Shown here: positions 2,152-2,650 of the stretch, one piece after another
Layout of the letters: every line of letters starts with the position of its first letter
Numbering within the stretch: the first letter of the stretch is position 1
Assembly (NCBI RefSeq): GCF_016613475.2
Contig: NZ_CP071517.1
Location: 248,001 to 312,000, forward strand
Source of the DNA: Lysobacter arenosi
GTDB taxonomy: Bacteria; Pseudomonadota; Gammaproteobacteria; Xanthomonadales; Xanthomonadaceae
Direction of reading: 5' to 3'
DNA length: 64,000 bases
Translations under genes and position numbers: made by a program
Notes under the pieces: model-generated
Database searches by the model: none
Told to the model about the DNA's origin: nothing
Seen by the model: only the letters and a program-made list of their open reading frames with translations

Positions 2152-2180
2152 AAAAGGCCGCGCATTGCGCGGCCTTTTTC
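2152..2180 (+). terminator. Rho-independent terminator of secDF
   Basis: A perfect stem AAAAGGCCGCGC / GCGCGGCCTTTT with loop ATT, ending in a run of five T. It starts 21 bases after the secF stop codon. Confidence 0.92.
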
Positions 2181-2190
2181 TTTGCCCGTC

Positions 2191-2210
2191 ATCCCGGCGA
2201 ATGCCGGGAT
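2191..2210. repeat. REP-like palindrome, ATCCCGGC-GAAT-GCCGGGAT type
   Basis: An 8-bp perfect stem with loop GAAT inside a longer conserved unit (CCCGTC before it, CCATCTTGACGT after it). It is one of six related hairpins in the window (2191, 2403, 13279, 13331, 25968, 41424), all in intergenic DNA just beyond gene ends. This one sits right after the secF terminator. Confidence 0.85.
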
Positions 2211-2239
2211 CCATCTTGACGTGGACTTCTGGGCTTGCC

Positions 2240-2392
2240 GTCTGCGGAGCGGCGTCGTCCACCGCGCCGGGGATTGCTCCGCCCCCTAGTCAGACATCCT
2301 GTCTGATGCGGGGCGCGGGACATCCATGTCCCGCTGCGGATCAATCCCCGGCGCGCTGAACGACGCTTCGGCATTTCATTACCCGGTCTTCG
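2240..2392 (+). repeat. Branched (three-way junction) repeat, copy 1
   Basis: About 153 bp that can fold into a cloverleaf. The closing stem is 2264-2276 with 2342-2354 (13 bp, GCGCCGGGGATTG). Arm A is 2280-2285 with 2310-2315, topped by CAGACA-TCC-TGTCTG (2291-2305). Arm B is GCGGGACAT-CC-ATGTCCCGC (2315-2334). The reverse complement of 2455-2609 aligns along the whole length, from the shared GTCTGCGGAG edge to the shared GGTCTTCG edge, and the stems differ mainly by paired, compensating changes. No open frame of interest lies in it. It is non-coding; its function is not known to me. Confidence 0.8.
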
Positions 2393-2402
2393 TCTCCCGT
2401 CG

Positions 2403-2420
2403 TTCCCGCGAAGGCGGGAA
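2403..2420. repeat. REP-like palindrome, TTCCCGC-GAAG-GCGGGAA type
   Basis: A 7-bp perfect stem with loop GAAG, followed by CCCATGGACGTTG. The same extended unit recurs at 25968-25985. It lies in the 62-bp spacer between the two inverted cloverleaf repeats, so the three elements form one composite block. Confidence 0.82.
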
Positions 2421-2454
2421 CCCATGGACGTTGCCCTTGACCTTCAGCGCTTAT

Positions 2455-2609
2455 CGAAGACCAGGAAACGACATGCCAGAGCGGTGTCCGCCGGCTTGGG
2501 GATTGCGCAGCAGTGGGCCATGGATGGCCCACGCCCCGCCTTCGGACAGGATGTCCGAACGAAGGGGCGGAGCAATCCCCAAGCCGGCGGACGCCGCCAC
2601 TCCGCAGAC
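2455..2609 (-). repeat. Branched (three-way junction) repeat, copy 2, inverted
   Basis: The inverted partner of 2240-2392. The closing stem is 2486-2506 with 2572-2592 (21 bp, perfect). Arm B is GTGGGCCAT-GG-ATGGCCCAC (2513-2532). Arm A is 2532-2537 with 2564-2569, topped by TTCGGACA-GGA-TGTCCGAA (2541-2559). Compared with copy 1, the two changes in each side of arm B and the A-to-G change in arm A are matched on the opposite strand, so pairing is kept. Copies 1 and 2 face each other around a REP hairpin and are bracketed by the secF and suhB terminators. Confidence 0.8.
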
Positions 2610-2622
2610 GCAGACTCGAAAC

Positions 2623-2650
2623 AAAAAAAGCCGCGCAAAGCGCGGCTTTC
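2623..2650 (-). terminator. Rho-independent terminator of suhB
   Basis: Stem AAAGCCGCGC / GCGCGGCTTT with an AA core loop. Read on the minus strand it lies 23 bases after the suhB stop and runs into a T tract (seven A on the plus strand, 2623-2629). Confidence 0.9.

Follow-up and report, generated by a model that had tools for sequence, protein, structure and literature searches.

What are the two inverted repeats, each able to fold into a cloverleaf, that face each other between secF (NCBIfam TIGR00966) and, on the minus strand, an inositol-monophosphatase-like gene (best NCBIfam match NF008027, below its cut-off) in Lysobacter arenosi? A first inspection from the letters alone (the sequence-only reading) of the window, i.e. 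the whole stretch of 64000 nucleotides analysed here, had offered three options: a non-autonomous element moved by a REP-type (RAYT) transposase, a structured RNA, or a DNA recombination or gyrase-type site. It had also set beforehand, as the outcome that would refute it, a lack of further copies and of covariation.

The pair itself is as described, with copy 1 and the reverse complement of copy 2 aligning at 77% over query positions 1–154 by blastn. Both copies fold into the claimed closing stem and two arms, with energies of −100 kcal/mol (z −7.2) for copy 1 and −107.4 kcal/mol (z −8.4) for copy 2, and in neither case did any of 200 shuffled sequences fold as low. Arms A and B, with their matched paired changes, are present at the positions given in Table 1. 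The copies were also said to face each other around a REP hairpin between two terminators; the REP hairpin is there, whereas the terminators are visible as hairpins with T-runs that a consensus terminator scan did not list. These terminator-like hairpins separate both flanking genes from the copies, and a scan for sigma-70-like promoters found none in 2050–2750. Across the window, Rfam gave no match at gathering score; searching 1900–2900 at E values up to 1 gave 17 matches, all below gathering score and none of them CsrB, CsrC or RsmX/Y/Z, indicating that the element is not covered by any known Rsm RNA family. CGTC-type REP hairpins, of which two stand beside copy 1, were seen by eye to adjoin many copies of the element.

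Table 1. Features of the intergenic region holding the two copies (window positions)
Feature	Position	Strand	Basis
Copy 1	2240..2392	folded (GGA) strand minus	model core 2264-2353; R2 89.0 bits on minus; fold; family alignment
Copy 2	2455..2609	folded (GGA) strand plus	model core 2494-2585; R2 101.8 bits on plus; fold
Copy 1 hairpin B	2315..2334	-	loop CATGGATG at 2321-2328 on minus; sequence
Copy 1 hairpin A	2290..2306	-	loop CAGGATG at 2295-2301 on minus; sequence
Copy 2 hairpin B	2513..2532	+	loop CATGGATG at 2519-2526; sequence
Copy 2 hairpin A	2542..2558	+	loop CAGGATG at 2547-2553; sequence
Copy 1 conserved end GGTCTTCG, inner end of pair	2385..2392	+	alignment of 24 own copies
Copy 2 conserved end GGTCTTCG, inner end of pair	2455..2462	-	alignment of 24 own copies; sequence
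CGTC-type REP hairpin between copies, separate repeat family	2398..2424	+	sequence; CGTC REPs as described in PMC3733652
Second CGTC-type REP hairpin, left of copy 1	2187-2213		sequence
Terminator-like hairpin behind secF	2152..2179	+	T-run hairpin read in sequence; not listed by consensus terminator scan
Terminator-like hairpin behind inositol-monophosphatase-like gene	2623..2649	-	T-run hairpin read in sequence; not listed by consensus terminator scan

Both further copies and covariation were found, so the refuting outcome did not occur and the pattern lies well beyond chance. The 3.95 Mb genome of the window holds 24 near-full copies, plus two weaker ones and scraps, which were collected by BLAST and then with a covariance model (R1) made from the 24; a second model (R2) used the opposite strand of 39 copies drawn from six genomes (alignment A3). 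Two-sided changes affect 15 of the 45 predicted pairs among the 24 own copies and 27 of 35 pairs in A3, where the covariation score was 0.463 compared with 0.153 after shuffling (0/500 shuffles as high) and 88.7% of cells were paired, compared with 69.1% in shuffles. Together with the excess of G-T over A-C mismatches described below, these data strongly support the proposal that the fold rather than the sequence has been kept in this family of elements. By eye, the outer stems of approximately 20–27 bp in one genome (G016, L083–L096) differ in nearly every copy yet pair well, and the inner core is much alike.

Model R1 found matches in eight of 59 genomes and R2, with at most ten candidates scored per genome, in 167 of 395 sampled members of the taxonomic family, from 26 of 54 genera; both counts include the own genome. 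Among 398 genomes of the order, 45 had matches, 42 of them inside the family and three, all weak, outside it. In addition, a pattern scan of named genomes returned at least 120 stretches; of 80 loci listed, 28 passed R2 at an E value of 0.001, comprising 25 from Luteimonas, Lysobacter, Pseudoxanthomonas, Stenotrophomonas, Vulcaniibacterium or Lysobacteraceae, with the remaining three split between a single gammaproteobacterial MAG (two) and Endozoicomonas (one). Luteimonas abyssi XH031 is among the carriers. The element family is found almost only in one bacterial family. The R2 matches on the Endozoicomonas contig (L218, 922–1009) and in the MAG, where they face each other as a pair (L250, 4866–5244), are weak and lie outside that family. 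Ten other genomes of the window's own genus gave no match with either model, and a search of phage and plasmid collections with one copy of the type found in genus g18 gave none in either. Copy number can be high, one 3.9-Mb genome (G275, genus g11) having at least 137 R2 matches when at most 150 candidates were scored, of which the 60 listed are all at distinct places. When the own genome was compared with another carrier, G007, five sites were held in common by both flanks, which align at 86–95%, and the secF/suhB site of G007 retains only a remnant. The copy sets of the two genomes differ, and their other sites differ by larger intergenic chunks, some with remnants; the intergenic regions are so different that gain and loss look alike at most of these sites.

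A DNA stem can be read on both strands, and so we used wobble pairs to ask which one folds, since a G-T on the folding strand is an A-C on the other. Loops, wobbles and placement were all counted in a chosen sample of 190 model matches, which yielded 175 distinct cores, 182 usable stems and 167 copies with a gene on both sides, and in which some stretches had been selected because they held pairs. Scoring only outer-stem positions outside the model, with register judged by Watson–Crick pairs alone, we counted on the strand that carries GGA in its loops 143 G-T against 45 A-C, plus 144 other mismatches, over the 182 stems, and G-T exceeded A-C in all seven groups, although the copies are related and so do not count as independent. 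In the placed subset, the ratio was 20:4 for copies with the GGA strand in the direction of the replication fork and 40:18 for those against it, and an excess in both orientations argues against replication-linked mutation bias as its cause. These data indicate that the fold of the GGA strand is the one that has been kept. For copy 1, the strand read at first was the complementary one, a point overlooked earlier. Of the three original options the structured RNA is the best supported, on the opposite strand. The test identifies the strand and does not separate a folded RNA from folded single-stranded DNA.

Also overlooked was that the apex of each arm is a nearly invariant motif. Of the 175 distinct copies, searched by text pattern where each loop was expected, 170 carry CANGGANG as the loop of hairpin B on the GGA strand and 164 carry CA(N)GGA as that of hairpin A, although the models that found the copies include the loops and so favour their conservation. 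In A3, the letters C, A, G, G, A and G of CANGGANG in hairpin B, and C, A, G, G and A in hairpin A, fall in columns that are invariant or 90% conserved. In alignment A4, the information content is 1.8–2.0 bits at the fixed letters of both loops and 0.99 bits at the N of loop B; stem or junction columns 19, 20, 39, 42, 49 and 52 are as conserved as the loops, and most stem columns are less so. The two GGA motifs lie a median of 27 nt apart (range 21–40, 175 aligned rows). Both loops closely match the RsmA/CsrA sites described in PMC7652899, namely the motif CAGGA(U/A/C)G that CsrB repeats in its hairpin loops, the consensus RUACARGGAUGU obtained by SELEX, and ANGGAN, a hexaloop to which RsmE binds. 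The same source cautions that stems of great stability might be unfavourable to CsrA binding, and the long stems of the element count to that extent against an RsmA/CsrA reading. Xanthomonas is described in PMC7694677 as having RsmA but no homologue of CsrB, CsrC or RsmV/W/X/Y/Z, and as making from a 3′ UTR an RsmA-binding RNA, RsmU, that still bound RsmA and still had its effect after all four of its GGA motifs had been altered; this suggests that GGA motifs alone are a weak predictor of RsmA binding.

We interpret the element as a repeat that is REPIN-like, multiplies, and has a built-in RNA module to which RsmA/CsrA would bind, a reading to which we give a probability of roughly one half. 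A multicopy intergenic element would have multiplied within genomes of one bacterial family through some mobilizing enzyme, with its pairs behaving like REPIN units, and the strand opposite to that read for copy 1 would encode a structured RNA whose two hairpins bind RsmA/CsrA. The transcript would arise by read-through from a neighbouring gene or from another promoter and then fold, the long outer stem presenting the CANGGANG loop of hairpin B and the CA(N)GGA loop of hairpin A so that an RsmA/CsrA dimer could dock on both. Each copy might mark its host transcript, affecting stability or 3′ end processing, or many copies together might titrate RsmA. The loops favour this RNA reading, the strand test agrees with them, and covariation and placement outside genes, seldom between divergent ones, also speak for it; the polarity of the pairs, a weak sense bias and the lack of a promoter in the scanned region favour a reading at the level of DNA.

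The chief rival is a recognition structure with a single-stranded-DNA function only, i.e. a mobile repeat whose cloverleaf is recognized by a single-strand (REPIN/IS200-like) or cruciform-recognizing transposase or recombinase, with the loops as protein contacts and no role as RNA, which we regard as possible if doubtful. One argument for it is the arrangement of neighbours: among those within 600 bp, 36 were inverted with their GGA strands diverging, none converged and seven were same-strand tandems, and among the matches listed the corresponding numbers were 18, 0 and 3. Two neighbours of the '+-' type exist, both more than 600 bp apart (L182, G114). The two GGA strands of an inverted pair are never on one transcript, which counts against the RNA reading. 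Variants of this arrangement were also seen. Genus g18 (L206, L207 and L208) has direct tandem copies approximately 250–380 bp apart rather than facing pairs, with three evenly spaced in L207, and in G275 (L190–L201) two cloverleaf subtypes are combined at several places into composite units that flank GTAGGAGC REPs; of eight G275 pairs inspected by eye, seven have the subtypes face to face with GTAG-type REPs between them.

Orientation relative to replication, with dnaA as the mark of the origin, adds to the case for a DNA-level repeat. Of the 24 own copies, 19 have a GGA strand that runs against the fork (19:5), as do 20 of 23 in G007 (20:3) and, among the matches listed, 66 of 101 single copies from 16 other genomes (66:35). 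Some genomes show no bias or a reversed one among the matches listed (G155, 3:6; G393, 4:3; G397, 4:4; G273, 0:2; G303, 0:2). Such a bias has two readings: either the element inserts into a particular strand, or copies are lost when their stronger fold sits on the lagging template, a known kind of loss. As copy loss would produce an equal bias, and several genomes have none or the reverse, we did not take fork orientation as sole proof of single-strand transposition. Fixed pair polarity and orientation against replication nevertheless point to a DNA-level process, as do a CTTCG-like motif seen by eye at both ends in several genera and the unlike copy sets of the own genome and G007. Against a purely DNA-level role, the strand whose fold has been kept is mostly the leading-strand template and not the exposed lagging one, and we know of no role for a GGA loop motif in transposases or recombinases of these kinds. 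In addition, 18 stretches of G014, G016 and G021 showed no evident gene for a transposase or recombinase next to the copies; judged by eye on their first 70 residues, the neighbouring genes looked ordinary. The alignments listed of 32 orthologous sites, where whole REP-bearing intergenic chunks differ, include no clean target duplication or empty site. The Y1 transposases considered below also fail to associate with the element.

An RNA hairpin at transcript 3′ ends that only stabilizes or insulates, like other MITE or REP hairpins and without RsmA/CsrA, is an improbable explanation. The very stable fold suits it, and so does placement: with genes called by a home-made codon-score caller, none of the 167 scored copies lies inside a gene, and the contexts are convergent for 65, co-directional for 93 and divergent for only nine. 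Within co-directional contexts, single copies are sense in 31 cases and antisense in 18 (p 0.085, which overstates the significance because the copies are related) and paired copies are evenly split at 22:22, so that the sense bias of single copies is weak. What a stabilizing hairpin leaves unexplained is why one fixed motif is kept in both loops while the stems drift.

Considerably less probable is that the element belongs to a known class of RAYT or TIRYT repeats, i.e. REPs, REPINs or the long TIRs of TIRtrons, despite the resemblance of its facing pairs to REPINs. The GTAG tetranucleotide was absent by eye from the hairpin foot in all 24 aligned own copies. As for the linked RAYT gene that the sequence-only reading had proposed to look for, a search for the Y1 transposase family gave no match in the own genome, nor in G007, G014 or G016, and one or two matches in the carriers G021 and G028. 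Over 395 genomes, Y1 was present in 119 of 167 carriers of the element and in 154 of 228 others (p 0.44), i.e. with no association, assuming that the two surveys drew the same 395 genomes. Four Y1 loci (L059–L062) have neighbouring repeats that are GTAG-type by eye, and R2 found nothing there at an E value of 0.001, its one match being of 15.4 bits (E 0.023) in L062. A RAYT was therefore set aside as the mover after the searches of ten and of 395 genomes, and what survives of the earlier proposal is the non-autonomous nature of the element, with which its dispersal and fixed-polarity pairs agree. One genome, G241, has ten listed Y1 transposase matches of near-equal score, each with one in-frame TAG.

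Finally, chance inverted repeats or a mutational artefact, in which template switching corrects palindromes and so mimics covariation, could account for outer stems that vary from copy to copy yet pair well, but is scarcely credible, as template switching would not preserve the loops, the junction motifs and the arrangement in two arms across 26 genera, and would give no preference for G-T over A-C.

How does the element compare with known systems? The sRNAs of the CsrB/RsmX/RsmY/RsmZ type are encoded by one or a few genes with their own promoters. Like them, the element has hairpins with CANGGA loops on one strand and two sites spaced for possible dimer bridging; unlike them, it occurs as many intergenic copies scattered over the genome, has a long outer stem, and showed neither a sigma-70-like promoter in the scanned part of the window nor an Rfam match at gathering score. 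Bcr1-, ERIC- and NEMIS-type MITEs are structured repeats of 70–300 bp without coding capacity that lie next to genes, as the element does, but the element differs from them in its nearly invariant loop motif and in that no target duplication was seen by eye. These MITEs are named in PMC3733652, which also describes CGTC REPs, palindromic repeats without a dedicated transposase; the CGTC REPs that adjoin copies here are single short hairpins and merely neighbours of the element. The REPINs and GTAG REPs described in PMC3116915 share with it short length, multiple copies, intergenic position, hairpins and inverted pairs as a unit, whereas the element is a two-arm cloverleaf of approximately 155 bp whose own copies lack the GTAG foot and which shows no association with Y1. 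RsmU, from the same broader group of bacteria, is an RsmA-binding RNA derived from a 3′ UTR, but as described in PMC7694677 it is 77/117 nt long, comes from one locus (comEA) and is reported only in Xanthomonas; we considered whether the two are the same RNA, and that description of length, single locus and host does not support it. The open-licence literature yielded no recognizable description of the element, and that on Lysobacter or Luteimonas nothing on it; with no Rfam family either, it is apparently undescribed, one known repeat outside our comparison being the self-complementary TIR family of S. maltophilia (PMC3733652).

Should the loops not bind RsmA, the family would still be a large one of structured, covarying repeats whose strand and polarity follow a clear rule that calls for explanation. 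A further and tentative prediction is that a selfish or domesticated mobile repeat has spread RsmA/CsrA docking modules to transcript 3′ ends, where together they may act as a distributed RsmA sponge, in a bacterial group of which one genus, Xanthomonas, is reportedly without the usual Rsm sRNAs (PMC7694677). If the loops do bind RsmA, many transcripts would have gained sites for a global regulator from a mobile repeat, and the titration of RsmA in bacteria without CsrB/RsmZ would become directly testable.
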